IMG/VR virus record: IMGVR_UViG_3300025122_000162
Location: 1-23,717 of that record
Length of the DNA stretch: 23,717 nucleotides
DNA from: a virus
Strand: one strand, 5' to 3'
In this document: positions 6,101 through 23,717 of the stretch, one piece after another
Layout of the letters: each line of letters opens with the position of its first letter
Position numbering within the stretch: position 1 is the stretch's first letter
Notes under the pieces: generated by a model
What the model was told of the DNA's origin: nothing
What the model saw: the letters and a program-made list of their open reading frames with translations, nothing else
Database searches by the model: none
Made by a program: the position numbers and the translations under genes

Positions 6101-9100
6101 TTGCAAGGAGGAATTCCTAATTATCTTGCCGATAATATGCCGCCGATTATCTCGGCACCCGGTTGTGATGATGGCTTGGTTCCTCATGAATCGGATGAGG
6201 CAGCAGCCGCAACAGCCGGTGCTCTAGGAAACAACTTAGAACAGTTAAAGATGGACTTTTCCTATGATATGCTTGGAAATGGACCAGGCAAAGGCAATTG
6301 GGGATTCATTAATATGGTTCTCAGTGATACCATGGGCAAACCATTTACCGCGCACCAGAGAAAGAAGTTTAATCAGAGCAGACGATATGTAGATTTTTAT
6401 GTGGACATGGACGCCAACAACGACGCCAAAGATGCAGACGCTGTCGGTAAGTTTGCTCTTGTTTCAAATCAAAAAGGCGCATACCCTATCCAAGTCGCAG
6501 GCTGGCTAGAAACAGCACTACAAGCACTGGCTGCTGCGGGAGTCACTTATGACTCTAATAACGATGTAAAAGGAGATGTGACGTTTAGAAAATCTTTTGA
6601 TGACTTTGATATATCCAATTTCAGCGGTAACCCACAAAACCTATTGATGATTCCGGATTTAGGATACAATGTGGGACAAAGTGTAGATGCAGAAAGCGAA
6701 GAGATAGTGTTTACGAAATTTGCTCGTAAATCGACACCGGATATGACTTTGTCTTTTGATGATAACGGCGACGGCCGCGATTTAGGCTACATTTACGGGT
6801 TTGATTTGGATCTTTACTTAGCCGATATGTATGAATCTGGTAGTACTTACGTCAATAGATTTAGCGACAATGCTAGAATTAAGTTAACTAGTAGATTGAA
6901 TACGGCAGTTACGCCTAGTGTAAATGATATATACAAAGCCGAAGGTGAATCCGACGACGAGGGCGGCGATGATATCATCGAAAATCGAGAATTTGAGTTT
7001 TTAGGGGTAGATGACACTCTCACAGCATTGGATCTAGATTCTTATACTGAGTTTCTTGCTTCTTTTAATACACAGCAGAGCTATAGCCCACCAGTAATTT
7101 TGCTTACTGAAATCTTAAATCAAAATGGTGGTAGTTTTTCTCAATCCAATATTAAATCAGCACATGATGAGATCATGTCCACAGTAACGAATACTTTTAT
7201 CGAAGCGATTTCGCTAAACAGTGCATCTTTTCTATATGGTGCTGAGTTCGATGATTTAACATCATCTGACATTGAATATGTAACGAAAGAGGGTACCCCT
7301 TATTTTGAAGCCGAAGTCGATGATGGCGACGGAGGAACGCGCGCGATCCAGAATGATGATCAGATCATGGGAATGAGCAATATGCAATATGAAGAAGAAA
7401 ATAGTGGCGGACCACCCAACAGAGTGCTCTATTTAGATCCCATCCAATATGGAGGAAATTATATGAATCCTCCTCTTTATATCAAACCCAAACAGAACAA
7501 AGGCTGGCTTGGCTTTGTCGATGTAATGTTTCCAGAAATTAGTCCGTGTAAGCCTTCGCGCACCGATATAATTGATTTTGAGGATATTGACGATAAAATT
7601 TCAGAAGTATATCCAAATATTCCGGAGGACACCAGATTATTAGGGGATCCCGATTGTGTGATTGAAAAACCCTATAATAGAATTTTAGAAAGACCGTCTG
7701 CTGCTGGTCTGCAAGGTTTAATTACGGCAGCCATTAGAATATATGTAAGTGTGCATTTTATAAAATCTCTTACTACTTTTACAAAGTTTTATCCCAAATT
7801 TCCTGAGACCTTTAGTTCCTTATATGCATCTTATATCGTGGAGCAGATGGAGAAAAGTTTCAAAGATGCACAAAAGTCATTCTGGGAGTTTTTTAACCCC
7901 TTTAAAGATGAAGAATTTTGGTATGCATTTTTAGAACAATCAGTTCAATTATGGGCCCGCCGCGTAGATGAGGGGGATATCGAAAATCCGTCCACCACGG
8001 CATTAAACGCTTGTATCGCCTTAAATAATGCTCAACGAAGCTATGATTATCCCGACAAACAAGACCTACGCGAAGCCAAAGGACTGGATGATATTGCATC
8101 CACCGCCGCTCTTGCCGCTGCAGCCGCCGCAACCGGCGGTGCTGCAGCCGCTGTCGCCGGCGGTGCAGCCGTCACTGCAACTGCTACCAGTGCCGGCACC
8201 GTAAGTATTTTTAAAACTCTCAAGAATTATCGTTCGGAAAAGAATCTCGAAGCAGTTAAAGAAACAGATGAATATGCTAAATTAGTTCTTAAAGAACTGG
8301 TGATGGAACAATTAGTATTTATGGGAGAGAAATTTATTTCTAACCTTGAACAAGTCGGCATGAAACCTGATATCTACGATCTTGATTATTTCTTACTAAC
8401 AGATATGACGCAAGGCGGCATTGATCTAGACCTCAACAAAGAGATAAAAGAAGAAGTTGCTGATTTACCCGACGAAGAAGAGGAAGAATTATATACTGGT
8501 GGGGGTGAATTTTATGTCTCTGAACAACTCGATGATAGCAGCGAGTATGAACAAGGAGATGAATATGTAGGTTATTTTCACGCGGTGAAAGATGACGACG
8601 GAAATCTTTCCTATATGGCCGGAGAATTCCACAGTGACTACGCTCATGACATTCTAACGCCGTTTGCAAGTAAAGTAATTGTACCGATTGGCGATATTGA
8701 GGAATATGGTTATGATCCATCATCTAGCACGGATGCACCCTTTGTAGTTGAAAAATATATCAGTATTGACGGAACAAGATATGATACTTCTGAGGCACTC
8801 GATATTATAAAAGCAAATGATAGCGCCCTTCTAATGTCCGAGGTATACCCAGGCACATTGGAATTGGTGAGAGATAGCAAAAACAATGCAGTCGGGGTTG
8901 AAGGTGAAATGGGAGTCCGATATGGTTTACTTTTTTCGATTATGATTAGCGGCGAAAAAATAGAAGTTACGACCGCAGAGATCGACGCGCTTGATCTTCC
9001 AATTGGACAAACGGCACCATTAGAGGGAGATAGTAAAATGTTACTCTGTTTGATTAATCTTCTTACAAAAGATAATGTTTTTATGTTGATTTCTCGCTAT

Positions 9101-9592
9101 ATTTTCCCTCTTCCTAAAATTACAGCGATGTTGGCGATTTACAATGATTTTGCATTTTTGCCCTCGATTGCTCAGAATACGGTAGCCGAGGGGGAGTATA
9201 AATCGTCAACCATTGATTCCAAGCCTGGTCAATATGTTTCGGATTTTGAAGAAGACGGCACACCTATTCTGTCTCCTGGTAAACCAGGTTGGGCCAATTA
9301 TGTGGATCGAGATAAGATGTCTTTGTTCATATTAACGTGGGACGAATGGGATAAACAATTATTGCGAAACTCCAAAAGCCGCATCAAAAGACTATTTAAG
9401 AACTATTATAATTCTCGTGAATTTTCTGCCGGTGAGGGGGATGATGATCTTAAGCCCGGCAAGATGTTCTTAAACGAACTGCGTGAACGATTTAAGCCAG
9501 CAGCCGGTCGTCAATTGCTTCCGTGGTGGAAGAAAAGAATGCTTCGCACTAATCCACTTAATGAAGGCGGAGAATTGTGTGAAAAAGAATGA
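3137..9592 (+). CDS. Giant structural protein of unknown function (2151 aa) with EF-hand-like loop
   Basis: I recognise no family over most of this protein. The N-terminus has an EF-hand/dockerin-like loop, DKDGNGLIDVCD (11-22), with Asp at loop positions 1, 3, 9 and 12, followed by CPSC (33-36). Other Asp/Asn/Gly runs that could bind calcium include DDNGDGRD (1208-1215). A very acidic tract lies at ~170-186 and another at ~1773-1786. Residues ~735-795 form a long amphipathic Ile/Leu/Lys helix, and ~1656-1690 an Ala/Gly-rich, glycine-zipper-like hydrophobic segment. More than 20 cysteines are scattered along it. It has no signal peptide. It lies 18 bases after the spike candidate and 29 bases before the gp25 gene, so a baseplate, hub or envelope-penetration role is likely. 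A tape measure is possible, but the mixed acidic/beta composition and the position after the hub genes argue against it. The single intact frame shows it is a real gene; the function is unknown. Confidence 0.85.
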   Translation: MADSKFLKWQDKDGNGLIDVCDDVLDIPAANNCPSCLKNPAAITPDWLTRTRYEPFLNERTCEYQITLRTKHTTTIDETLLEEDAIKPITSDKSEAAVEERFEEYANDAVEALLDYYEKDDSEASRLAILDVIDYTEYDLDPRPKSRLKLLYSVPFDDLNALDDAGEESDDEEDEGSEVEVTYEPADLELKLIRVRKTLNLYTRYLKVYRALDGGNLYFLDSNAIFNLEDYGDLGIFPKSILADLLPQLDAFLAQKGYDLPGVGNPFKAIGKDKVQKLEFKFSKEYKLKKLSIYTEACKEKPIIFNKKLSILNSKSAWKDKTALAYLAQLDDIDAALQAREPPPWLEFVEEYTYPKIYSSVNAGYENTEPEKSAGSCIAGALAEEGKQFGQDILDDVFSIGDAIAYQFQKNLCVNNLEELAELDVKMGLVYDPERAKLYGEKNAHVGIGAMAKEQAFKEIFAEESPCAIAYPLMLIAYGVPVGDVWKFTFDPLKQCGLLDLLLDAVKCLFGGLSLEEALASMLKSALRSMSLEYFGDLFVGLPPDKQAELDALVQKKLESGDMFSKSSKDLEYLPEGDEPGEEASDTPLIGSFSFTKPWEDEDAIEAEKKAAAAAKEKAIEGTLAPDYDSQKGTVNSHEEANELEEEQMMTQAKQQLKPTVVMEAYILALLDLYADNLLGLADLLNKFPGAQIIANIIAIFRCPTPPLRPNIMDFLHSIELPFCRDKSEIVLPRLFNPAEWVASLADIWKALWNIIKLEIQKLILKILIKLMIKICELIGNAICKALETVGDLAAALPAMATGRTTFSDVIRESICGDDADEEQVNDTIVDMISTLGVGGAALADTEQTLSFAEDISAATTRNELMSAFLGKPSNDFLTIVNEIVEFEYPDYQDSLGNKNKIGSLFKNMGNLMPAEFKDTMQNFVDTLPEGDGMPANPTLCATPETLDNFKELRCELLAGRATKEQCDKMFKNLQDKSLGDLEQLGNVLQGGIPNYLADNMPPIISAPGCDDGLVPHESDEAAAATAGALGNNLEQLKMDFSYDMLGNGPGKGNWGFINMVLSDTMGKPFTAHQRKKFNQSRRYVDFYVDMDANNDAKDADAVGKFALVSNQKGAYPIQVAGWLETALQALAAAGVTYDSNNDVKGDVTFRKSFDDFDISNFSGNPQNLLMIPDLGYNVGQSVDAESEEIVFTKFARKSTPDMTLSFDDNGDGRDLGYIYGFDLDLYLADMYESGSTYVNRFSDNARIKLTSRLNTAVTPSVNDIYKAEGESDDEGGDDIIENREFEFLGVDDTLTALDLDSYTEFLASFNTQQSYSPPVILLTEILNQNGGSFSQSNIKSAHDEIMSTVTNTFIEAISLNSASFLYGAEFDDLTSSDIEYVTKEGTPYFEAEVDDGDGGTRAIQNDDQIMGMSNMQYEEENSGGPPNRVLYLDPIQYGGNYMNPPLYIKPKQNKGWLGFVDVMFPEISPCKPSRTDIIDFEDIDDKISEVYPNIPEDTRLLGDPDCVIEKPYNRILERPSAAGLQGLITAAIRIYVSVHFIKSLTTFTKFYPKFPETFSSLYASYIVEQMEKSFKDAQKSFWEFFNPFKDEEFWYAFLEQSVQLWARRVDEGDIENPSTTALNACIALNNAQRSYDYPDKQDLREAKGLDDIASTAALAAAAAATGGAAAAVAGGAAVTATATSAGTVSIFKTLKNYRSEKNLEAVKETDEYAKLVLKELVMEQLVFMGEKFISNLEQVGMKPDIYDLDYFLLTDMTQGGIDLDLNKEIKEEVADLPDEEEEELYTGGGEFYVSEQLDDSSEYEQGDEYVGYFHAVKDDDGNLSYMAGEFHSDYAHDILTPFASKVIVPIGDIEEYGYDPSSSTDAPFVVEKYISIDGTRYDTSEALDIIKANDSALLMSEVYPGTLELVRDSKNNAVGVEGEMGVRYGLLFSIMISGEKIEVTTAEIDALDLPIGQTAPLEGDSKMLLCLINLLTKDNVFMLISRYIFPLPKITAMLAIYNDFAFLPSIAQNTVAEGEYKSSTIDSKPGQYVSDFEEDGTPILSPGKPGWANYVDRDKMSLFILTWDEWDKQLLRNSKSRIKRLFKNYYNSREFSAGEGDDDLKPGKMFLNELRERFKPAAGRQLLPWWKKRMLRTNPLNEGGELCEKE

Positions 9593-9621: not shown

Positions 9622-9990
9622 ATGAATGCATTTGGAGTCGCCCTTCCGCTGAACCGATCTTCAGCCGATGGGTTTGTGATGATTAAGAGTATTAAGAAGC
9701 TCGTCAATCAAAATTTAAAAATGTTACTTTTAACTAATCCCGGCGAAAGAGTGATGCGTCCTAACTTTGGCGTAGGAGTTAAGCGATATTTATTTGAGAA
9801 TTATGGGCAAAATGTGCAAGCACAAATAGAAGCTAAAATTAAAGAACAAACTCAAATATATATGCCTGCTATAGAGATAATAAAGATCTTTTTTGACGGC
9901 TCCGATCAGGATCAAAACATCCTAGTAATGTCGATTGCATATACCATCCCGGATATAAATGTAAAAGATTTATTGCAAATTACTATTTAA
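9622..9990 (+). CDS. Baseplate wedge protein, gp25-like (GPW/gp25 family)
   Basis: This 122-residue protein is close to the usual length of T4 gp25 and P2 gpW. The family hallmark is clear: LLLTNPGERVMRPNFGVGVK (35-54) followed by RYLFEN, i.e. the conserved GER-(V/M)-x-P-x-FG-x-G-(V/L) motif with a following LFE. The C-terminal half alternates an amphipathic helix (about 64-80) with beta strands, as in the lysozyme-like fold of this family. In contractile tails and related injection systems, gp25 joins the baseplate wedge to the first sheath ring and helps start sheath assembly. It is followed 15 bases later by the gp6/J gene, the order conserved in many contractile-tail clusters (gpW-gpJ in P2, gp46-gp47 in Mu). 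This is one of the two firmest identifications in the window. Confidence 0.95.
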   Translation: MNAFGVALPLNRSSADGFVMIKSIKKLVNQNLKMLLLTNPGERVMRPNFGVGVKRYLFENYGQNVQAQIEAKIKEQTQIYMPAIEIIKIFFDGSDQDQNILVMSIAYTIPDINVKDLLQITI

Positions 9991-10005: not shown

Positions 10006-11802
10006 ATGTCTAATGAACAGAAAAAAATAGTCCCCATCGACTATACCCATCGAGAGTTTGAAAGTATACGCGCAGATTTGATGGAAATAGCCGAACGGTT
10101 TTATCCTGATAATTTTCAGGACTTTAGCGAGGCATCATTTGGTTCGCTCATGTTAGATGCGGTAGCGTATGTAGGAGATCAATTATCCTTTTATCTCGAC
10201 TACAATGTAAACGAAGCATTTTTAGATACCGCTTATCAATATAATAATGTTCTAAGACATGGTCGGGTGTTGGGATTTAAAAACCCCGGTCGCCCCTCCA
10301 CTTATGGAAAGGTGGCCTTGTACCTTTTAGTTCCATCTTCAGTTAGCGCTTTGGGTCCGGATGTTAATTATATTCCCATTCTTAAGAGGGGGTCTCGTTT
10401 TAATTCTCAAAATGGATTAAGTTTTGTGTTAACCGAAAATATAGACTTCGCCGCCCCAAAAAACCCCGTTGTTGTAGCCCGAGCAGACACCACAACGGGC
10501 GCCCCCACCTATTATGCTATCAAAGCTTATGGCAATGTAGTGTCGGGATATTTTTCTCAAGAAGAAGTAACGATTGGAGCATTCGAACGATTTAAGCGCG
10601 CTCGACTCGCAAACGCCAACGTTTCAGAAATTATATCGGTACTAGATGCCGACGGCAATGAATATTTTGAAGTAGATTATTTATCGCAAGATATCGTCTT
10701 TAAGGAGATTCCTAATAATAACTATAAGAAGGATAACGTACCTTCAGTTATAAAGCCATATTTGGTATCTCGTAAATTTGTAGTCCAACGAGATCGATTA
10801 GGAACGAGCATTCAGTTCGGAAGTGGAAAAACTGGAGAAACAGATGTGGTAGCAAATCCCCAAGGAGTTGCCATGGATATTTTTGGAAAATCTTATGTAA
10901 CCGATACTACCTTTGATCCCACCCGTTTATCTAAAAATGATAGTTTAGGGATTGTCCCTTCTAATACTACATTAACTATTATTTATCGCGTAACCAATCC
11001 TACGAATTCTAATGTTGCCACCGGTGGATTAACTAGCGTTTCTAATGGATTGTTTAACTTTAAAGATAGAGATCTTTTAGTTGAATCTACAATTCAGACA
11101 GTTATAGGTTCTTTAGAGGTTAGCAATGAAGAACCTATCGTAGGAAACGTTAGCAATGCCAATAGTACCGAATTGAAACGAAGGATTTTTGATACTTTCC
11201 CGACCCAAAACAGAGCCGTTACACAGTCAGATTATGAAAATTTAGTGTATCGAATGCCAGCCAAGTTTGGATCACTCAAACGTTGTTCAGTACAAAAAGA
11301 TCCTGATTCGCTTAAACGAAATTTGAATTTATATGTTATTTCTGAAGATCAATTCGGAAAATTAACAAAAACCAATTCTACTATCAAAAATAATTTAAAG
11401 ACTTGGCTTAATCATTATAGAATGATTAACGACACTATAGACATTCTCGATCCCTTTATCATTAATTTAGGAATTGATTTTGTAGTAAAACCAGCAACAG
11501 GGGTAGACAAATTTACTTTATTAGATTCGTGTGTGATGGCGTTGACCAAGAAATATGCCACCGCATTTTATATTGGAGAACATTTTAATATTTCCGATGT
11601 GTATCAAGAACTCAAAAACGTAAAGGGCGTCTTAGATGTGGTAAAAGTAAAATTAAATAACAAAACGGGAGCAAATTATTCAGGAACAATGATAAATATT
11701 AACAACAATTTTTCTCCTGAAGGAACAATGCTTATCGCTCCTAAAAACGCCATCTTTGAAATTAAATATCCCACAACCGATATTAGAGGAAAAATTCGTT
11801 AA
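10006..11802 (+). CDS. Baseplate wedge protein, gp6/baseplate-J-like
   Basis: The 598-residue length is close to T4 gp6 (660). The N-terminus has the pattern of T4-like gp6 proteins: DYTHREFESIRADL (12-25), then FSEASFGSLMLDAVAYVGDQ (40-59), then a Tyr/Asn-rich helix with NEAFLDTAYQ and LGFKNPGRPS. Towards the C-terminal part, FPTQNRAVTQSDYENLVYRM (about 400-420) matches the baseplate-J hallmark (NRAVT-x-x-DY). In T4, gp6 dimers link neighbouring wedges into the continuous ring around the hub and drive the dome-to-star change of the baseplate. It sits directly behind gp25 as expected, and its TAA overlaps the next ATG by one base (TAATG), so the DNRLRE gene is probably translated in coupling with it. 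The family is firm; which of gp6 or a shorter J protein it functionally equals is less certain. Confidence 0.92.
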   Translation: MSNEQKKIVPIDYTHREFESIRADLMEIAERFYPDNFQDFSEASFGSLMLDAVAYVGDQLSFYLDYNVNEAFLDTAYQYNNVLRHGRVLGFKNPGRPSTYGKVALYLLVPSSVSALGPDVNYIPILKRGSRFNSQNGLSFVLTENIDFAAPKNPVVVARADTTTGAPTYYAIKAYGNVVSGYFSQEEVTIGAFERFKRARLANANVSEIISVLDADGNEYFEVDYLSQDIVFKEIPNNNYKKDNVPSVIKPYLVSRKFVVQRDRLGTSIQFGSGKTGETDVVANPQGVAMDIFGKSYVTDTTFDPTRLSKNDSLGIVPSNTTLTIIYRVTNPTNSNVATGGLTSVSNGLFNFKDRDLLVESTIQTVIGSLEVSNEEPIVGNVSNANSTELKRRIFDTFPTQNRAVTQSDYENLVYRMPAKFGSLKRCSVQKDPDSLKRNLNLYVISEDQFGKLTKTNSTIKNNLKTWLNHYRMINDTIDILDPFIINLGIDFVVKPATGVDKFTLLDSCVMALTKKYATAFYIGEHFNISDVYQELKNVKGVLDVVKVKLNNKTGANYSGTMININNNFSPEGTMLIAPKNAIFEIKYPTTDIRGKIR

Positions 11803-13529
11803 TGGCCATTAGAAGATATACTGCGTCTGCTGACACTACCATTGTTAATGCATATAGACCAGATTTACAAACGCGTGGGACCGGCGCCAATATGGGTGAA
11901 GCCGATGTCTTGGAAACTTTTTCAATTTACGGTCGCGTCACTACAAGCTCAGCAGAACTATCCAGAATTTTAATTAAATTTCCTATTAGTGACATTTCAG
12001 CAGATCGCACCGCTGGTACAATCCCGGCGAGTGGTAGTGTCAATTATTATTTACGGATGTTTAATGCTAAAACTTCCAAAACCGTACCACGAGATTATAA
12101 ATTAACTATCATGGGGGTTTCCCAGTCATGGCAAGAGGGAATTGGATTAGATCTCGAAAGTTATGCAGACATCACCAATGGGAATACGGGTGCCAACTGG
12201 ATGAGTGCCTCCAATACAGCTTATTGGACAGATAATAATGGAACTCTTTTGGTTGGTGGTTCTTATCATACAGGCAACACCGGCGTCACCCCTTCCCAGG
12301 AAACGTTTATCTTTACTCCCACTTTCTCCAGTGGTTTGGAGAGCTTAGAAGTTAATATCACTCCGATGGTGGAGCAATGGATTGCAGGAACCTATACAAA
12401 TTATGGTGTAGGGGTACATTTTTCTGCGAGCTATGAAGCCAAACATTCTGGTTCGGCACCTTCCGTGGTCAAACGACGACCCGGTCAGCCCGCACTAGAT
12501 GCTGGTGACAGTACCCAAAGCGTTCTCTATAACCCTAGCGGTTCTACTGTTTCTTATTATACGAAACGCTTTTTTGGAAAGGGCTCGGAATTCTTTTTCA
12601 AGAGACCGGTGATTGAGGCGCGCTGGAATGATCGTGTTACTGATGATCGCGGCGACTTTTATTATAGTAGTTCATTGGCCCCTGCTGCCGATAACATGAA
12701 TACAATTTATCTCTACAACTATATTAGAGGAAGGTTGAAAGATATTCCTAATCTTGGAACAGATAAAAGAATTTATGTTAGCATTTTCTCTGGTTCTACA
12801 GGGGGATTCTATGAGGGAGGTGATGGAGACGATGTTGCACCTTCAAACACACCTGTGTCTGCAGCGACTGCCCAACAAACCGGCGCAGTTCAGATTTTAT
12901 CTGCCGATAACACGGGTTATGTTCGAAGTACCTATCCAACTGTTGTAACTGGCGGTATCGTTTCCACAGGGGTCTATAGCGCCTCCTTTGCATTTACGGG
13001 CTCAGATAAATTATATACAATTTATGATGTGTGGTTTACCGGGAGTCGTAGCACAAAAAATGCTTTAACGGCTCCGACTCAGTATTTTACTGGAACCATT
13101 AAGCCTATGACCGTTCGCGCGCGCCAGAGTACTCGACATCCTGTATATTATCTCAACATTACGAATCTACATGATAGATATCGACCCGATCAAAAAGGCC
13201 GTTTTAATTTATTTGTAAGAGATAAGTATTGGAGCCCAACGATCTACACAAAAGCAAATTCAGATATTGAAACCACCACCATTGTAAGCGCTTCATATAG
13301 AGTTTATCGAATTTTGGACGGCTTTGATGCCATTCAGTATGGGACCGGAAGTGAGTTGCATACCGGACTATCTTATGATGTCTCAGGAAATTACTTTGAT
13401 TTTAATATGACCCTATTAGAACCGGGTTATGCTTATGCATTTAAGTTTGCATTTTACGATGAAGAGTTAAAGACCTGGACAGAACAAGATCAAGCATTTA
13501 AGTTTAGAGTAGAAGACTATGAGTATTAA
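11802..13529 (+). CDS. DNRLRE-domain baseplate/adhesion protein
   Basis: The protein has 575 residues. The first ~210 fit the DNRLRE-type beta-sandwich pattern seen in surface and phage proteins: SADTTIVNAY near the start, GTGANMGEADVL at 27-38, then ELSRILIKFPISDI at 53-66 (the R-x-L/I-x-KF strand), and later a W-rich strand with SWQEG. The middle is Ser/Gly/Thr-rich. The last ~130 residues are compact and aromatic-rich (RDKYWSPTIYTKA, SYRVYRILDGF, YDVSGNYFDF), and look like a conserved anchoring domain. There is no signal peptide, as expected for a virion protein. It is translationally coupled to gp6 (TAATG) and overlaps the next giant gene by 11 bases, which suggests that the two work together, perhaps with this one attaching the giant fibre-like protein to the wedge. 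The domain call rests on motif pattern only; the role is inferred. Confidence 0.8.
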   Translation: MAIRRYTASADTTIVNAYRPDLQTRGTGANMGEADVLETFSIYGRVTTSSAELSRILIKFPISDISADRTAGTIPASGSVNYYLRMFNAKTSKTVPRDYKLTIMGVSQSWQEGIGLDLESYADITNGNTGANWMSASNTAYWTDNNGTLLVGGSYHTGNTGVTPSQETFIFTPTFSSGLESLEVNITPMVEQWIAGTYTNYGVGVHFSASYEAKHSGSAPSVVKRRPGQPALDAGDSTQSVLYNPSGSTVSYYTKRFFGKGSEFFFKRPVIEARWNDRVTDDRGDFYYSSSLAPAADNMNTIYLYNYIRGRLKDIPNLGTDKRIYVSIFSGSTGGFYEGGDGDDVAPSNTPVSAATAQQTGAVQILSADNTGYVRSTYPTVVTGGIVSTGVYSASFAFTGSDKLYTIYDVWFTGSRSTKNALTAPTQYFTGTIKPMTVRARQSTRHPVYYLNITNLHDRYRPDQKGRFNLFVRDKYWSPTIYTKANSDIETTTIVSASYRVYRILDGFDAIQYGTGSELHTGLSYDVSGNYFDFNMTLLEPGYAYAFKFAFYDEELKTWTEQDQAFKFRVEDYEY

Positions 13530-16500
13530 GAAGCTTTTTGATTCTAGTGACACATCCCGCAATTTTCTAGCCGACTCGAATGAGAAAGAGGCGTTTCAGG
13601 AAATTGAATCTGCGGATAATCTTCGAGCCCTTCGGGACAAACAAGATTCTTTTGTTCCTCATATAAATTATCGCAAGCCGGAGAATTTTGCCAAGTTTGG
13701 GTCTGCTTACTTATATTATAAGGGTGCCATAGAAAGAATTATCGATTTCTATCCCTACGACGGATCTGATGCAGAGCTAAATGAATTTTATAATAAATCT
13801 CTCAATATTGAAAAGTATATTTTTAATAACCTATATCCGCGCACAAATGGTTACGTTAAGCTTAGCTCAGATGGGTGGGGAACTTTAAGTGGTTCGCTCC
13901 AAAGTGGATATGGACTACCAAGTAGTTTAGAATATATTGATTTCACTGGTGGTCCTCATACAATTTCTACCACAGCAACAGCGAAGCTGTTTCACAATCC
14001 AAGTTCTTCTAACCCACAAGCTTCTAATATTTACGATACTTCAATTTACACCACCGCTGGTTTACCTAGTGATTATGGAAGTGGTACTAGGGAGTCGAAC
14101 TTAAGAGCCAATTTTGATACTGGAGTGAGCGTAGAGTTTTGGATAAAGAGCGGCTCTATAAATACGAATTTGACCAATAAACAAGTTGTTGTGGATCTCT
14201 GGAACAATGAATTATCGTCCAGCGGATATGGGGGAGCCGCAGGCGCCAATCCCAACCCTCACTATGGACGTGTCACGATTGCCTTAAATGGTTTATCGGC
14301 AGGTTCTCCCTTTAGGGTGACGGCCCAATCAGGGGCTACTGGTATTTTTGAACAAGCCATTGGTGATGATTTAAAGGTCAATACTCTAGATAATTGGAAA
14401 CATTACGCTATTGTTATGCAGAACACCGGAAGCGACTTCGCTTATCGGCTTTATGTAGATGGAAGAATCAATGATATCAATTATGTAAGTGGTTTAAACA
14501 TCAACGAGATCAATTCTAAAAATATGGTAGGAAGGTTAGGATCTCTGCTGACCGCCCCTTCTGGTGCTGCTGACAATGCCCAAAAAACTGAGAACATGGT
14601 CGGCGCTGGCAAATTTAGTGGGTCTATTGATGAATTCCGATATTGGAAAGTAGCACGTAGTGGTAAGGGTATTGGAAAGAATTGGTTTACTCAAGTACGC
14701 GGCGGTACAAATACCGATATTGCGAACACGACTTTAGGAATTTATTATAAGTTTAATGAAGGCACCACCGGCGAATCAGCTATTGACCAAACAATTTTGG
14801 ACTATAGTGGAAGAGTTTCCAATGGCGCGTGGACCAACTACACAGCAAATGGACGGTTTACTGGTTCAGCGATAGTTGAAGCCACTGCTTCAGCTACAGA
14901 ATATAAAGATCCTATTATTTATGCTGTTAATCCCGATGTTGCATCCCTGAAGAAGAGCTTATTGAAAAGCGGTTCTTATCACGATACAACCAATAATTCT
15001 TCTTTCATGAGTTTAATACCCAATTGGGTTATTGAAGAAGTTGAAGAGGATGAGACTAATAATGTAAGAGTTATCTCTCATATTATGGGAACTTATTTTG
15101 ATAAGATTCATGCATGGATTAGTGCCATTCCTAAGTTTAAAAACACTGTGTATACTAGCGCGTCTTATTCTCCTTATCCTTTCGCCGAACATCTACCTCA
15201 ATCATTAGGGCTTTATGCGCCTGAATTATTTGTAGATGCCGATGTATTAGAAAAATTCTTAAATCGCGATGAGACAACGAAATTTGAAGGCGATCTAACA
15301 GAAACTAAGAACCTTATTTATCTGAACTTATACAATAATATTGCTAATATTTATAAGGCCAAAGGAACCGAAAAATCCGTGAGAAACATTTTTAGGTGTT
15401 TTTACATGGACGATACGGTAATGAGATTAAATACCTATGCGCACCATAACACATTCACTCTCCAAAACAATCTTCAACAAGTACGAGTTGACCAAACATC
15501 CCTAAACTTTAATAGCAAACTTAACCTCACCGGTGTGGTTTATCAAGCTCAAAGTGGCTCTAGCGCAGAAAGTCAGGGCTATATTTCTGGTAGTGGACCA
15601 TTAGGATATGAAGATAAATATGGATTTACGCTGGAAGCTGATGTCCTTTTTCCTAGATTCTTCAGAGAAAAAGACAAATTTGATAGAAACTTTTTCACTG
15701 CTTCTTTGTTTGGTCTGTATTCCGCATCGGTGGACCCCGATTTAAACAATGACACTACCTTTTATGCCACCGATAATGTCAACTTTCAGGTGTATGCAGT
15801 AAGAGATGCAACACGTTCTAAAAATGTGTATTTTAAATTATCGTCATCGATTGCGCCTTTCCCTATTCCAATTTTAACCAGTAGTGTTTTCTTCAATACC
15901 TATGATCAGGAAAGATGGAACCTTTCCGTAAGGCTGAAGCCGAGTAATTATCCTTTAACTGATATTGTAACAGGGTCCGAAGACTATACCTATGATCTGG
16001 TATTTCGTGGGGTTAATCCTGAATTAGGGAGCGTTCAGAATAGTTTTGTCTTGACGGCATCCTTGAGTAAAGCTGCGGGTCGCAACTTGTTAAGATCGGC
16101 TAAAAGAGCTTATGTGGGCGCCCGCAAGACAAACATTACCGGCGCAATTTTAAACAAATGCGATGTGGTGTTTAACGGACTAAGATATTGGACGAAGTAT
16201 CTCGAAGACACCACCCTTAATCAACACATTTTTGATGTTCATAACCGAGGTATTTCGGGATCGTATCAGAATTATGCTGTAAAAGATCCAACCTTGGCGA
16301 ATAACGACGTTTTGAATCTAAATGCTATAGCCCTTGATTGGAGCTTTGATGACATTACGGGTTCTAATACAACTGGTAATTTTTATGTAACTGATTTTAG
16401 TTCGGGCTCCGCGTTATTGAGGGATAATTTTAAATGGGTTGGAGACATGACAGGCTACCAGCATACGGGATATGGTTCAGGGTTCCCTACCTCTTCTAGC

Positions 16501-19500
16501 GACCCGGTTGTTCGAGAAGCCATCAACTCCTTTAAGTTTATTGATCCAGAAATGGTGATTTCATCTGAGATGATACAGATTTTATCAGAGGATGATAAAG
16601 TTTTTGATATCACCAAAACCGTACCCAGTTATAAGTATACTCTCGAAAAGAGCATGTACAGCGCAATTTCTGAGGAAATGTTACAATTTTTTGCTGGTGT
16701 CATAGATTTTAATAATATAATTGGAGATCCAGTAAACCGATATAGAGCGAGATATAAGGCTCTCGAAAAACTACGAGAGATTTTCTTCAGACGAGTTACC
16801 ACCACATCAAAGGTAGAAAAGTTTATTGACTATTACAAATGGTTTGATGATGCTATCTCCCAAGTAATTGCGCAAATGCTACCAGCATCATCCGACTTTC
16901 TCCCCGACACTCTTAATACTATCGAAAGTCATGTTTTAGAAAGAAACAAATATAAAACTGCGTTCCCCACAATTGAGATGAAGCCTACCGATCCAGAGGG
17001 GATTATTGAAGGCGTATACGCTTTAACCTATCCATACATCACAGGCTCAACTCCACTCCCCAGTTCTCCTCGATTAACCAGCGAACACAAGATCTATTGG
17101 CAACAACGAGCAGAAAGAGGGGCCCCAGAAATTACATCGGGTGATAGTACTGTTGATCGACAAAGAAATAAATTTAGAGATGTAATTTATAACACTCCCC
17201 ACCTCAGTCAAAGTTATCCAGTAGTGTCTACGATTGATGGTGATCGTTATTCAACTAGAAAATTTACACTTGATAGGTTAGCAAAAACATATAATATAAA
17301 TGCCATCCATAAAAGCGCAAGCTATGCACAAGGTGGGGTAAACTTTGGCGGCAATAAAAACATTCAGCTTACTTATACTGCATTATATCCTTTTGGACCG
17401 GTGAACACTGATGGAGGAGTATATATTCCTGAAAACGTTCTTGTCGCCTTTACAGATGATATGGTTAAACTGGATGAAACAGTAGATATTTCTGATGTTA
17501 ATATAGCTTCTGCTCCTTACTTTTTTAAGCACCTTCAAAAGCACAAGAGATATATGGGGGTACAACATGGTAGAGAATGGGAAAGGGGCTTAGGCTATTA
17601 CAATCTTAAGTCTTCACGTATTTTTCCTTTTAATATTATAAGTCCTGGTGTTAATTCTGGGTTTAACAAGCGAGTGGTTGATCGGGTCACGGCAAGCATT
17701 CAATTAACCAACTTGCACAACGATGTATACGGGGACGATATGGAAGTACCCATGCAGGGTCCATTTACGGATTATGCGGTCGGAGGACATCAATCTCGTC
17801 ACATTGCACTTAATAAGAGTAGTTCGGCCAAAACCTATTATGTTAATGGTTTAGATAGTTATTTAAGTCGTCCTGAAGCTTGGAAGATATTGTTGGGTAT
17901 GCGCACCAGCAGCGCGGGTGTTTTTGGGGCAGGCGCCGGAGCCCTCGGGATGGCGGGTCCGGATTATCCATGGCCCGAAGCCAACGCACTCGGGGTGCGT
18001 CCTTATCCGATGACAGGCGCCCAACGTGCAACTTATTATCGGGACTTTATAGCTAAGCGTCCGGTTAATATTAGAAACATTCAGATGAAAACCGGCTCAA
18101 CCATTCTCGGAAATTATAGTCATAATTATGAATTGGTTAGTAGCGTCGGAGCATATTCCAATCCACGCAACTTTGTAAAGAATCAACCAACGCTACCCAT
18201 TGAAATTACAGAAACACCTTCCGCATCCCAGGGACGGTTATTCACTGATATTCATCGAACAGAAAACGGACACATTGAATTGATTCCTTCATATTCTATT
18301 GGATATCTTACTGGCGCCACCAACAAGAGTATTATCACCTCTCGTTTCTCTAACCCGGGAGGAATTGAAACGATGGGCATCGGATATATGGATATTCGAG
18401 CGGCAGAGTACTCAGTTTATAATGTCCCCAATTATAGGAACTTAACAGTTCTTAAACCTTCACAAGGACCCAGCGGTACTATTTCGCAACCTACCGGTTC
18501 CGGAACGCCCGGTATTCGTGTTTATGACGTTATTGGAAAGGATTATGGATTGTATGCTAACCTTTCTCGTCATAGCGCAAAATTTGGCAGAAATAGTTCA
18601 ATATATCCTTCTGACTCTGAACGCGGGCCCTATAGTTTAAATCAACCCTTTGTGGGCTATAGTGGTCTCAAAACTTATCGTGGAGAAGAGTATTTACAAG
18701 GATGGTGGCGCTTAAGAGAAAATGTATCATCTGCTGGAACCGCTAAAGATAGTAGTGATTCGGGAGTAGGCGCTGGTACTTTTGCAGGCGCCTCATCACG
18801 TCCCGCCTATTCCACCGCACTGTATCCCTCTATCTATGTTCAAACTGCTAGTTGTACTTTCGATGCATCTGCTAATAAAGTTGCTATTGGGGGCGCCGGC
18901 ACATGGAACGTAATTATAGGCGCCGGCGCCGGTTCAACCAAACAAATGACTTTTAGTGCATGGGTATACAAAACTGGTGACGGTGGAAACAATGAGGGAC
19001 GTATATTAACCTTTGGTGACGATGATATTTTCCTTTATACCAATAGTGTAGAAAGAGTTTTGTTTGAAGTGGGTGCGTGGTCTGGCACCAAGGGGCTGTG
19101 GAACAGCAATACAACAGGCGTTTTTGCACTTAATTCATGGACTCATATTGCTGTAACTTATGATGTCTCTAGCACTACCAACGATCCTCTTATATATGTT
19201 AACGGAGTATTGGACACCCTTTCTGAAACAAGCACCCCCGTAGGCACTTATGGAGGCATACAAACAGCAGCATCTTATATAGGAAACAGAAACGACGAAG
19301 CTTATGGATTCGCCGGACAACTTTCTGATGTCGCCGTGTGGAATTCTATATTGACTTCAGAAGAAATTAAAGCAATATATAATGCTAGTAAATTACCAGA
19401 AATCGCAGGACCAGGAGCTTCTTATCAGCAGGCTCCGTCATATCAGAAGGTCAATAGAAATACTAAAAAACGTTTAAAATGGGTAGAACGATTTGGAGCC

Positions 19501-22500
19501 GTTACGACCGCCTCTGTTTATGACAACTGGTCTGTCCAATATCAAATTCCGAGATCAGACAAACAATATGCGTGGATAACGGAATCACTATCCGATCCTA
19601 CTAACGAAAGATATATGGGATTTTGTCCACTTTATGGAGATTTTGAGGGATGGCATTCCACTTCAGCCGGATATGTATCTTTCTTTGATTTTGTGTCCGC
19701 TAGTGAAATTGGAAATCAATTGCCGAATTTTTATCAGCCTACAACAAGCAGATTAAATATTTATACTCTAGATCCTGTTACTGGCGCCACGGACAATGTA
19801 ATAGGGTTTGCGGCCGGTATCAATACAAGTTCATACTTTAATAATACACTATTAAACAAACGGTTTTATGGCGGCGCCCGCCCCAACGTTTCACGTTCGG
19901 TTACTGCAAACGGTGCCACTTATTTTAACCTTCTCATGACTCGCAGAGGCAATACCTTTGGCTGGGGCTGGAACAGCAGCCGCCAAGAAGACAATCCCAT
20001 CTTAAGAGCGGAGAGAAATGCTAATGAAATTACCTTAATGCAAGAAGATAGGACGCTCTATAGGTATTCGATGCGGCCGGTTAATTCGGATGGGCGTCCT
20101 GCTTTAATAAATATCAATGCCCCCATCTCCGCAGATTCGCTAACAAAGCAAGAAGATAACAACTTTACTTTGAAAGTTGCACACAAGGGAATGGATATGC
20201 GCTTTACTGACACTGGGATGGATGACTTCTTATCAGCGCAAAATATTCAAACTGAAGAATCGCCTTTGGAACAAATTATACGACTAACCTATGAACCGGT
20301 TTATACCTTGAACTGGCTACTTTATACCGAAAACCTATTCCCATCAGTAAGGAATGCATATAAATCTTCTTCAATTGAAAGAACAGATTATGATAATAAG
20401 TTTTGGAGAGATAACACCGCCGCACGAGTTTCATTGGGTGCCACCCTGCCTAATTCTTATAACATAAATCCCTATGCATATTTGTCTCAAAGCTGTTGGC
20501 CCTTAGACGCACAGGAAGATTTTTTAACAAGGACGGGACCCCCTACGAGTAGCGTTCCTAGTGAATTCACATTTCCAACCGAAGGCAAAGCAGGAGAGCT
20601 TCAAAACAATTATTTCTCCTATTTTACTGGAGCACTGGATCGAGGTACGATCGATGGTATTACTTATAGTATTCCATACACCAGCGTTCGAATGCTTCGC
20701 CCGGCTGCTTTATATGCTAAAAAACACATGATAACGACTTTACGATCTACAGTATCTCCAACAGGGCCACAACCAATTGTAAGTTATGATGTGGGTGCCG
20801 CAACCTTTTCGGGTGCTATCGCTCCGTATGCCGGCGAAGCAAAATGGGAAGCGAATACTTTAGCTGGAATTGTGGTCAAAAACAATGTGAGAGCAGCGTT
20901 CCAGGCTTCTGGTTCAGATCCATTTTTTAATGATTATGATGATTTTAAATATGATTTAAAATTAATAGCCAAAGATTATTCTATTATTCCTGAATTTAGA
21001 ATTAGTGAGCATGTTGAAGATTATGTAAAATTTGGAATTTCGAATAAAGAGAAGACCGATACCTTTGAGATTCCCGGGACGATCTATAATAGTAGCACTA
21101 GCTCATTTTATAAAGATTATTCCAATTCAGAGTTTATGACAGAATTTTTGAACATTAAAGACCAAATCGATCTAAAAGGAGCCGAAATTAAACTAGTATG
21201 CAGCGCTGCTATTAGGCTTAATCCATACAAGGGATTCTATCCAGCCCAAAGAACTTTAGATTTGGTTTCACAATTTTCAAACTCATATGGAGAGAGTCTA
21301 TATGGGCGCGCCCCACATGGAAATGGTGCTCTGGTAACTTACGGATTTCCCATGTTCATGCAGCCAGCGCGCCCTGGCGGCTCCCTAAGACCTATTGTGC
21401 AGCCTTTGTTTAATCCAGGAATTTTATATAACTCAATTAAATCTGGGATCGGGGTCGATTATCCAGTGGTTACCGATATCACCAAGATAGCGCGCTCCAG
21501 TTCTGCCGGCTCGGATATTAACTATTATGGTCCGAACAAGGGAGACAAAACTGATAACTGGGCGATTACTTCTGCTAATAGTGCTAGCGCTACTCGTGGA
21601 ACAGGCTATATACCCACTGTTGGTTCTGGTAGTGTATTCTGGGATGCACGAATTCCTTTTGAAGCAATTATGGAGCCGGAAAATTATTTAGATGGTATGG
21701 ACCTTTGCGATATTGAACCTCACCCCTCTATGAGTTTAGATGCTACTGGCTCTTGGAGCGGCGGAGGAGACGAAGTTTATACATTAATGGCTAAAAACTT
21801 CTTTGGCGAAGTAGCCAATTTTTTCTTAAAAGATCAAGTGCTCACACGATTAGAATCGGGGGTCATAACTGATGGTACAACATTTAAATCGGGAAGTATG
21901 TATGGTGCTAGATTGAAAATTCGTCGGTCCACCACTGGTCCGAGAACTTATGATAACGAATCGGGTTCTTCAGGTGATAATACAGCTTATTCTAGGATGG
22001 GAGGACGTGTTTGGGCTGATAATCTCGGCGGCGGCTTCAGACTTGGAGGCTTTCCTCTTCCACAAGATCCTCGCCAGAATCCATTATTTAAAGAAAATTT
22101 CACCATGTATAGCCGTCCAAGTGCATTCGGACCCGCAGTGGGAGGAAGACCCGTGGCAACAGATTCTGCGCTTAATCCTGCAGGTGGGACAGGGACCGAT
22201 GGGCCGCGAAAACAGGTTCTGAAGGCTTCCCCGGTTGATTCTTTTAATGGTTTTAACTGGGCTTTTACTCCTCCCTATTACAACGGAGAAGCATGGGTGG
22301 ATATAATCTTTAAACCCCAGGCTAATACTTCTTATGATTTAGATTCTATACTTTCTGAGGCAAAAACGTTTTATAGAAGAGTTGATCCCGGCTGGAATGG
22401 AATGAAAATAGGACCCTACGACCAGAATCAAACCGCCCTCCTTAGTTCGTTTGTAACGTTTTCGGGCTCTTTGCAAACGATTTATGGTGGCCACAATGTA

Positions 22501-23717
22501 AATTGGAATGCAATGCAGATTTCCTCTAGTATTAATATATTTGGCGTACAAAGCGTACCCCAACAAAGAACAGGTAGATCTGGACAATTAGTAGAAAGCG
22601 TAAACACGTCCGAAGGAAAAAAATGGATTATTCAACCCAAATGGGAAACACCCATGCTAAATTTCAATGATACGGGTACCCGTGCTATTACTTCTTCTGC
22701 CGGCACCTTAACGCTTCCTTCAAATTACGGATCCGGCTCTGTTCCTCAAGGGATGTGGCACCAATTTGGCATTATTGATCCCGATCCTAAAAAGGGTGTC
22801 TTTTTAGAAATAGTCGATATTCCCGTTGATTGGTTAAAATTTCATTATGATATATTACAAAATGATACTTATTATAACGATTTTGATGCTGCGAATAAGG
22901 GCGCCCGCGTTAACAAACGAATGAAATCATTGTTGAATGTAGTAGGTTTTAATAAAAAGAATAGCAGAGTTAGACTAGGTCAAATGGCTGAAGAAATTAT
23001 TCTTCGAGAAGCTGTAGTGGCAATTCCATATATCTTAGAAAGTGTAGATAACAACACCAATAATAATGCAGGCGGATCATCCAATACTACTAAAAAGAGT
23101 TTTATTGATATTCCTATGGCACGTTATGAAGCGGCATTAGCAGGGCAACAAGGAAGTTTAACGGGAGACTCCCTAGAAGCATCCGGAGAGTCAATTAGAA
23201 AGTTGGTTCAAAAAATGAACAGGTTTATCTTACCCCCGCAGTTCGATTTTGTTAACAATGGAGATGTAGACCCAATTGTTATGTATATGTTTGAATTTCA
23301 ATACAAATTAGACAAAGATGATCTAGCATATATTTGGCAAAATGTTGCTCCTCGTAATTATAAGAGACTGGATCTGGTAGCAGAATCCATCGCTCATGAC
23401 CTGGGCGACACACAACTATTAAGTGAGAAAAACATTTTTGATAATGAAAACTTACGTTGGATGCTTTTCAAAGTCAAACAAAGATCTCAAGCTAATTATG
23501 ATGATTTAATAGCGGATCAAGCTGAAAGCTCTACCACTGTGGCTCGAATGAGTTCCCAAGGTGTCAATGCCCTCAGAAGTGGATTAGGGGGTTTTGGCGG
23601 AAGCATTGGAGGCGGCGGTGGAGGCAGCGGCGGAGGAATTGGGGGAAGTGCTATCTCCGGCATGTCCGGACAGTCTTCCAATCAAAGTCTAAGGACGCCG
23701 CAAGCCAGCACAGAGCC
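13519..23717 (+). CDS. Giant LamG-domain baseplate/tail fibre protein, 3' end outside window
   Basis: The frame starting at ATG 13519 (MSIKKLFDSSDT) shows no stop up to the right edge, giving at least 3399 codons. In order: a conserved-looking N-terminus (YRKPENFAKFGSAYLYYKGA, DFYPYDGS, YPRTNGYV; to ~115); a LamG/concanavalin-A-like domain ~138-414 (VSVEFWIKSGS, WKHYAIVM, FSGSIDEFRYWK); helices with IYKAKGTEKSVRNIFRCF (611-628), a GT-containing stretch reminiscent of contractile-tail wedge proteins; a divergent LamG-like region ~703-909; WSFDDITGSNTTGNF from ~941; a helical segment ~1051-1124; a clear LamG_3 domain ~1770-1955 (MTFSAWVYKTGD, WTHIAVTYD, YVNGVLDT, GQLSDVAVWN); long beta-rich sequence; a helical block ~3248-3334; and a Gly-rich run ~3354-3381. 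It overlaps the DNRLRE gene by 11 bases (AGAG and AGAAG precede the ATG). Its place after gp6 matches T4 gp7 (1032 residues), so a greatly enlarged wedge or fibre protein for receptor or glycan contact is inferred. Confidence 0.88.
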   Translation, partial: MSIKKLFDSSDTSRNFLADSNEKEAFQEIESADNLRALRDKQDSFVPHINYRKPENFAKFGSAYLYYKGAIERIIDFYPYDGSDAELNEFYNKSLNIEKYIFNNLYPRTNGYVKLSSDGWGTLSGSLQSGYGLPSSLEYIDFTGGPHTISTTATAKLFHNPSSSNPQASNIYDTSIYTTAGLPSDYGSGTRESNLRANFDTGVSVEFWIKSGSINTNLTNKQVVVDLWNNELSSSGYGGAAGANPNPHYGRVTIALNGLSAGSPFRVTAQSGATGIFEQAIGDDLKVNTLDNWKHYAIVMQNTGSDFAYRLYVDGRINDINYVSGLNINEINSKNMVGRLGSLLTAPSGAADNAQKTENMVGAGKFSGSIDEFRYWKVARSGKGIGKNWFTQVRGGTNTDIANTTLGIYYKFNEGTTGESAIDQTILDYSGRVSNGAWTNYTANGRFTGSAIVEATASATEYKDPIIYAVNPDVASLKKSLLKSGSYHDTTNNSSFMSLIPNWVIEEVEEDETNNVRVISHIMGTYFDKIHAWISAIPKFKNTVYTSASYSPYPFAEHLPQSLGLYAPELFVDADVLEKFLNRDETTKFEGDLTETKNLIYLNLYNNIANIYKAKGTEKSVRNIFRCFYMDDTVMRLNTYAHHNTFTLQNNLQQVRVDQTSLNFNSKLNLTGVVYQAQSGSSAESQGYISGSGPLGYEDKYGFTLEADVLFPRFFREKDKFDRNFFTASLFGLYSASVDPDLNNDTTFYATDNVNFQVYAVRDATRSKNVYFKLSSSIAPFPIPILTSSVFFNTYDQERWNLSVRLKPSNYPLTDIVTGSEDYTYDLVFRGVNPELGSVQNSFVLTASLSKAAGRNLLRSAKRAYVGARKTNITGAILNKCDVVFNGLRYWTKYLEDTTLNQHIFDVHNRGISGSYQNYAVKDPTLANNDVLNLNAIALDWSFDDITGSNTTGNFYVTDFSSGSALLRDNFKWVGDMTGYQHTGYGSGFPTSSSDPVVREAINSFKFIDPEMVISSEMIQILSEDDKVFDITKTVPSYKYTLEKSMYSAISEEMLQFFAGVIDFNNIIGDPVNRYRARYKALEKLREIFFRRVTTTSKVEKFIDYYKWFDDAISQVIAQMLPASSDFLPDTLNTIESHVLERNKYKTAFPTIEMKPTDPEGIIEGVYALTYPYITGSTPLPSSPRLTSEHKIYWQQRAERGAPEITSGDSTVDRQRNKFRDVIYNTPHLSQSYPVVSTIDGDRYSTRKFTLDRLAKTYNINAIHKSASYAQGGVNFGGNKNIQLTYTALYPFGPVNTDGGVYIPENVLVAFTDDMVKLDETVDISDVNIASAPYFFKHLQKHKRYMGVQHGREWERGLGYYNLKSSRIFPFNIISPGVNSGFNKRVVDRVTASIQLTNLHNDVYGDDMEVPMQGPFTDYAVGGHQSRHIALNKSSSAKTYYVNGLDSYLSRPEAWKILLGMRTSSAGVFGAGAGALGMAGPDYPWPEANALGVRPYPMTGAQRATYYRDFIAKRPVNIRNIQMKTGSTILGNYSHNYELVSSVGAYSNPRNFVKNQPTLPIEITETPSASQGRLFTDIHRTENGHIELIPSYSIGYLTGATNKSIITSRFSNPGGIETMGIGYMDIRAAEYSVYNVPNYRNLTVLKPSQGPSGTISQPTGSGTPGIRVYDVIGKDYGLYANLSRHSAKFGRNSSIYPSDSERGPYSLNQPFVGYSGLKTYRGEEYLQGWWRLRENVSSAGTAKDSSDSGVGAGTFAGASSRPAYSTALYPSIYVQTASCTFDASANKVAIGGAGTWNVIIGAGAGSTKQMTFSAWVYKTGDGGNNEGRILTFGDDDIFLYTNSVERVLFEVGAWSGTKGLWNSNTTGVFALNSWTHIAVTYDVSSTTNDPLIYVNGVLDTLSETSTPVGTYGGIQTAASYIGNRNDEAYGFAGQLSDVAVWNSILTSEEIKAIYNASKLPEIAGPGASYQQAPSYQKVNRNTKKRLKWVERFGAVTTASVYDNWSVQYQIPRSDKQYAWITESLSDPTNERYMGFCPLYGDFEGWHSTSAGYVSFFDFVSASEIGNQLPNFYQPTTSRLNIYTLDPVTGATDNVIGFAAGINTSSYFNNTLLNKRFYGGARPNVSRSVTANGATYFNLLMTRRGNTFGWGWNSSRQEDNPILRAERNANEITLMQEDRTLYRYSMRPVNSDGRPALININAPISADSLTKQEDNNFTLKVAHKGMDMRFTDTGMDDFLSAQNIQTEESPLEQIIRLTYEPVYTLNWLLYTENLFPSVRNAYKSSSIERTDYDNKFWRDNTAARVSLGATLPNSYNINPYAYLSQSCWPLDAQEDFLTRTGPPTSSVPSEFTFPTEGKAGELQNNYFSYFTGALDRGTIDGITYSIPYTSVRMLRPAALYAKKHMITTLRSTVSPTGPQPIVSYDVGAATFSGAIAPYAGEAKWEANTLAGIVVKNNVRAAFQASGSDPFFNDYDDFKYDLKLIAKDYSIIPEFRISEHVEDYVKFGISNKEKTDTFEIPGTIYNSSTSSFYKDYSNSEFMTEFLNIKDQIDLKGAEIKLVCSAAIRLNPYKGFYPAQRTLDLVSQFSNSYGESLYGRAPHGNGALVTYGFPMFMQPARPGGSLRPIVQPLFNPGILYNSIKSGIGVDYPVVTDITKIARSSSAGSDINYYGPNKGDKTDNWAITSANSASATRGTGYIPTVGSGSVFWDARIPFEAIMEPENYLDGMDLCDIEPHPSMSLDATGSWSGGGDEVYTLMAKNFFGEVANFFLKDQVLTRLESGVITDGTTFKSGSMYGARLKIRRSTTGPRTYDNESGSSGDNTAYSRMGGRVWADNLGGGFRLGGFPLPQDPRQNPLFKENFTMYSRPSAFGPAVGGRPVATDSALNPAGGTGTDGPRKQVLKASPVDSFNGFNWAFTPPYYNGEAWVDIIFKPQANTSYDLDSILSEAKTFYRRVDPGWNGMKIGPYDQNQTALLSSFVTFSGSLQTIYGGHNVNWNAMQISSSINIFGVQSVPQQRTGRSGQLVESVNTSEGKKWIIQPKWETPMLNFNDTGTRAITSSAGTLTLPSNYGSGSVPQGMWHQFGIIDPDPKKGVFLEIVDIPVDWLKFHYDILQNDTYYNDFDAANKGARVNKRMKSLLNVVGFNKKNSRVRLGQMAEEIILREAVVAIPYILESVDNNTNNNAGGSSNTTKKSFIDIPMARYEAALAGQQGSLTGDSLEASGESIRKLVQKMNRFILPPQFDFVNNGDVDPIVMYMFEFQYKLDKDDLAYIWQNVAPRNYKRLDLVAESIAHDLGDTQLLSEKNIFDNENLRWMLFKVKQRSQANYDDLIADQAESSTTVARMSSQGVNALRSGLGGFGGSIGGGGGGSGGGIGGSAISGMSGQSSNQSLRTPQASTE
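13930..14760 (+). other. LamG-like domain 1 coding segment
   Basis: This segment codes for residues ~138-414 of the giant protein. The signature of the concanavalin-A-like jelly roll is visible: an EFWIKSGS strand, a WKHYAIVM strand, a YRLYVDGR hairpin, and the closing GSIDEFRYWK strand followed by YYKFNEGT. Such domains commonly bind glycans, or act as trimer-supporting modules in phage fibres. Confidence 0.75.
18820..19400 (+). other. LamG_3-like domain coding segment
   Basis: This segment codes for residues ~1768-1961. It is the cleanest LamG_3 match in the window: MTFSAWVYKTGD, FALNSWTHIAVTYD, PLIYVNGVLDT, SYIGNRND and FAGQLSDVAVWNSILTSEEI occur in the canonical order. It lies in the middle of the giant protein, far from the N-terminal copy, and sits in the part of the gene richest in GGCGCC. 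Confidence 0.85.

Follow-up and report, generated by a model that had tools for sequence, protein, structure and literature searches.

In T4, the slot after gp6 is occupied by gp7, a protein of 1,032 aa that contains no LamG domain. Among the T4-like phages, gp7, gp10 and gp12 fall into as many as nine divergent clusters (Sullivan et al., PMC3037559), and the marine T4-type cyanophages have no recognisable T4 g10, g11, g12, g34, g35 and g37, the replacements of which are an open question (PMC2984593). Directly after gp25-gp6, the Kyanoviridae (S-PM2p084, Syn1_094, SRSM4_151 and S-RIM8 gp160, for example) encode far longer proteins, namely those of S-PM2 (3,048 aa), Syn1 (3,274 aa), S-RSM4 (3,515 aa), DSL-LC03 (4,107 aa), ACG-2014f (4,225 aa) and S-RIM8 (6,395 aa), which are annotated as virion structural protein, baseplate wedge subunit or baseplate wedge initiator. 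Giant slot proteins are thus already established in marine T4-type phages. Three further T4-type phages also have unannotated proteins in the slot after gp25-gp6; their lengths are 1,336 aa in Microcystis phage Mel-JY01 (WWT39511), 1,265 aa in Flavobacterium phage immuto (Immutovirus; QQO92079) and 1,400 aa in LR756508.

Here, a stretch of 23,717 bases (the window), which is the complete IMG/VR record IMGVR_UViG_3300025122_000162, was analysed. On its plus strand, a gp25-type baseplate wedge subunit (9622..9990; phrog_261, E 1.8e-18), a gp6/J-type baseplate wedge subunit (10006..11802; phrog_6, E 9e-17) and P0008 (11802..13529), a protein of 575 aa with a weak DNRLRE-like N-terminal domain, are followed by the putative giant baseplate protein of the gp7 slot (P0001, 13519..23717), which overlaps P0008 by 11 nt and comprises at least 3,399 aa, its 3' end lying beyond the contig. 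A scan of IMG/VR detected 46 relatives of this giant, and the order gp25-gp6-P0008-giant was found in all 41 of those with sufficient upstream DNA; the 11-nt overlap with the preceding gene was found in 34 of 43. The gp7-like position after gp6 that the first-pass annotation had proposed therefore stands as far as the slot is concerned, but not as a place immediately after gp6, because P0008 intervenes in the window and in every one of these 41 relatives. The size of the giant, for its part, is not without precedent in the gp7 slot, in view of the Kyanoviridae lengths given above; the slot protein of S-RIM8 (L112, NC_047733.1, 48784-67971) is about twice as long as the giant of the window. No paper on this protein family was found in a literature search.

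Homology to slot proteins of other phages is located in a core of the giant (14926..16953, plus strand, residues 470-1145). A profile of the giant family matched the slot proteins of Mel-JY01, Immutovirus and LR756508 with E-values of 7e-12 to 2e-18, and a profile-profile comparison (hhalign) aligned the core with these shorter homologues over 566 columns (probability 99.5%, E 3e-22). Unlike the giant, the three shorter proteins have neither the N-terminal LamG part nor the C-terminal extension of 2,200 residues. The first-pass annotation had singled out residues 1-130 and 580-1150 for comparison with T4 gp7; no significant direct similarity to T4 gp7 was obtained with single sequences or profiles in hhalign, whereas the core matches three T4-type slot proteins, which contain nothing that corresponds to residues 1-130. 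In the Pfam scan, the gp7 domains PF21428 (Gp7_helical) and PF21427 (Gp7_5th) matched neither P0001 nor its core segment, and a T4 gp7 segment matched both; searches of PDB sequences with both profiles gave nothing useful.

A link to gp7 was obtained through the Kyanoviridae. The core includes a motif (15328..15420, plus strand, residues 604-634), seen in the family alignment and in profile comparisons, in which K615-G616-T617 is invariant across the giant family. Between the giant family and the Kyanoviridae slot proteins, this KGT-centred motif aligned over 34 columns (E 7.9e-6), and between the latter and T4 gp7 a KG(T/I) motif aligned over 26 columns (E 5e-8); none of 60 column shuffles reached the score in either case, although the segments compared had been selected for containing the KG motif, a choice that makes a match more likely. 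In a less biased check, in which a profile of the Kyanoviridae and T4 motifs was searched against 971 ORFs, the giant of the window ranked first (E 3.9e-5, followed by 0.21), and its close relative in the 191-kb record G001 was not among the matches listed. Moderate evidence from these comparisons, the link being one of about 34 residues, thus suggests that the giant contains a gp7 core that is reached transitively. In short, the gp7 identity first proposed is supported by the slot and by the core motif via the Kyanoviridae, but not by direct similarity to T4 gp7 or by a Pfam gp7 domain. The motif lies near the N-terminus (about residue 190) in the Kyanoviridae proteins and at about residue 615 in the giant, and outside it the two families could not be aligned. 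Their decorations also differ: the Kyanoviridae proteins scanned (S-PM2p084 and DSL-LC03) carry YHYH domains and no LamG, whereas no YHYH domain was found in P0001 by the Pfam scan.

Two clear LamG-like domains had been recognised in the giant at the outset, and both were confirmed, since Pfam PF13385 (Laminin_G_3) matched P0001 in two stretches with 74.6 bits against a cut-off of 27.6. LamG1 (14164..14685, plus strand, residues 216-389), with a fold of the pentraxin/PAPP-A/laminin type, exists in every family member that covers the region. The second domain (residues 1804-1955, nt 18928-19383) lies within a larger cassette at site a (18604..19401, plus strand, residues 1696-1961). A divergent third LamG, suspected in a beta-rich region at about 650-905, gained no support from profile comparison; of the matches in the fold search, none but some tandem-LG ones, the rmsd of which is very large (34-41 A), might reach this region. 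LamG1 itself is related to the cassettes (E 4e-5 and 2e-11 in profile comparison).

Cassettes were found at four sites in the family. The cassette of site a is recognised in the window, L006, L019, L045 and others, and is lacking in L021, the closest of the complete relatives; insertions at site b fall at about 1987-2003, site c is occupied at about 2311 (L045), and at site d a cassette is nested inside LamG1, at about 325-333 (L024 and L039). One cassette type is common to sites a, c and d, with 41-50% identity across sites, and has thus moved within the protein. Cassettes also differ in presence between close relatives, L016 being without the cassette of L020 and L028 without that of L024. 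Site b is hypervariable, with identities of 20-38% over most of the cassette and of about 70-100% in the flanks. For example, L020 and L022 share 72-100% identity upstream of site b, 80-88% just downstream and 26-38% in most of the cassette, and L003 and L020 share about 90% on both flanks and 20-33% inside. Between L006 and L034, identity falls sharply from 84-100% up to about residue 1680 to about 60% beyond the cassette, which marks a recombination breakpoint within a single gene. Cassette exchange together with hypervariability at site b forms a pattern typically seen in domains that are in contact with the host. The architecture of an invariant LamG accompanied by LamG cassettes inserted at four sites appears to be new.

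Taking these results together, we think that the giant is probably a virion protein in the gp7 wedge slot, the LamG cassettes of which act as an exchangeable receptor-binding array. Its presence in the virion, its assembly into the wedge and its binding of receptors are what we infer from the slot and the domains. In this model, the conserved core at about 470-1145 would join the gp25/gp6 wedge, and the N-terminal LamG and the cassette LamGs would be displayed around the baseplate, where they may bind surface glycans or other receptors. The cassettes sit at a few tolerated sites, most of them within the C-terminal extension, and recombination adds, drops, relocates and swaps in divergent cassettes while the scaffold remains conserved. 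Because cassettes are exchanged and the scaffold is conserved, attachment specificity could be changed without rebuilding the wedge, and such a swappable lectin design may govern the choice of cells to which the virus attaches. The family would thus offer, for one uncultivated T4-type lineage, a concrete candidate answer to the question of replacements raised by the cyanophages, namely a wedge-slot chassis for exchangeable adhesion domains. As the cassette sites are sharply defined, their role is testable with isolated cassettes.

The first-pass annotation had gone further and suggested that a baseplate wedge is merged with an integral receptor-binding array that replaces separate tail fibres. 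Cassette exchange supports the receptor-binding part of this suggestion; a replacement of separate fibres could not be demonstrated, the 191-kb relative having further, putative fibre-like ORFs of 983 and 370 aa. A related and bolder possibility, which we regard as rather doubtful, is that the wedge polypeptide is itself the host-range organ: with several LamGs per chain and six wedges, a lectin ring would be formed, in which cassettes are inserted, moved and replaced at fixed sites, and no separate fibre would be needed for at least the first contact. If this were true, receptor recognition would sit directly in the contraction machinery.

It is unlikely, in our estimation, that the giant is instead a baseplate-anchored tail fibre or spike encoded after gp6, which binds receptors without being part of the wedge, the true gp7 being, say, P0008 or the downstream gene of about 335 aa. 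The LamG content and the exchange of cassettes are both characteristic of adhesins, and it is P0008 that directly follows gp6 in every relative; however, the gp7-core motif is located in the giant, and homologues of the giant's core occupy the slot in three other T4-type phages. LamG folds may also serve structure rather than receptor binding. A somewhat smaller chance still is given to a purely structural wedge protein, in which the LamGs would serve only protein-protein packing or stability and the cassette differences would be neutral mosaicism. The invariant position of LamG1 and its identity of 80-97% between close relatives would be consistent with such a role, but the divergence at site b greatly exceeds that of its flanks, and the appearance and disappearance of cassettes between close relatives (L020/L016 and L024/L028) are as expected of exposed host-interaction domains. 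That an assembly error or frameshift has fused several genes, or that the protein is a non-virion surface protein, deserves hardly any credence in spite of the ORF being open at the contig edge, since the synteny is fixed within the baseplate operon and independent contigs encode complete homologues, which refute a fusion.

These homologues also allowed the missing end of the giant to be estimated. The frame had been described as uninterrupted and open at the window edge, and this is correct: 3,399 codons (13519-23715) are free of stops, of which about 222 would be expected by chance from the base composition. Because the window is the whole IMG/VR fragment, the stop codon of the giant must come from relatives, and 25 distinct relatives in IMG/VR were found to be complete single-frame ORFs of 2,919-3,895 aa; the giant ORF is therefore real. 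The conserved ends that had been noted were likewise borne out, in that the relatives share a C-terminal region (23119..23553, plus strand, residues about 3201-3345), which could be aligned and modelled, and, in the complete homologues, a conserved (F/Y)NWPYD(Y/H)xSxVE stretch near the C-terminus that is followed by a short tail. In the window, the conserved region is followed by a Gly/Ser-rich linker at the contig edge (23554..23715, plus strand), after which the NWPYD motif comes in the relatives, beyond the window. Judging from this alignment, the window lacks the last tens of residues of the giant, possibly as many as about 100.

Structure prediction for the N-terminal 1,160 residues yielded a model that was confident in part (pTM 0.43) and matched pentraxin, PAPP-A and laminin-type folds; essentially ConA/LamG folds were returned, and matches to toxin receptor-binding domains were set aside as reflecting the shared lectin fold only. 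Confidence was low in the helical core (pLDDT <50 for 540-652 and about 1008-1160). The model of the C-terminal 926 residues of L027 (pTM 0.77) had no fold match in the PDB and seven strong matches in BFVD (A0A0F7LAZ6, A0A1B1IWQ4 and five others; E 1e-35 to 1e-65, TM 0.54-0.71). These entries, to which the C-terminal part is thus similar in fold, are without functional names, and at least one of the seven (A0A0F7LAZ6) is from an uncultured marine virus.

The source of the window is best explained as an uncultivated virus of bacteria with a T4-type contractile tail. The marker genes were established in the relatives, the window itself being only a fragment: the 191-kb relative has T4-type terminase, portal, capsid and sheath genes, and six long relatives have a T4-type prohead protease. 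The terminase of the 191-kb relative is about 44% identical to those of Immutovirus, Mel-JY01 and LR756508, its closest relatives, and 32% identical to those of cyanophages; psbA was absent from the 12 relative records examined. The end of P0008 and residues 1-1206 of the giant were also found in CP070664.1 (L062), a "chromosome" of a WOR-3 MAG. There, the phage fragment is flanked by runs of N and unrelated genes, and it is probably a scaffolding artefact, so that it gives no host and WOR-3 was rejected as such.

Upstream of the giant, the genes of the window are arranged in the order P0002, P0003, a protein of 346 aa, another of 2,151 aa, gp25, gp6 and P0008. P0002 and P0003 (148-816 and 816-2063) are adjacent paralogues with 50% identity over 207 aa, and P0003 has an added VanY/M15-type peptidase domain and is probably a tail-associated cell-wall enzyme. 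The 2,151-aa protein, a second giant ORF (3137-9592), could not be matched convincingly to any entry of Pfam, PHROGs or NCBIfam, and it is conserved upstream of gp25 in the relatives, at about 1,900-2,150 aa. Elsewhere in the 191-kb relative, a 378-aa protein (G001:138311-139447; L058:18311-19447) showed a near-threshold match to the Tubulin/FtsZ GTPase family (E 1.4e-7, 32.4 bits against a cut-off of 33).
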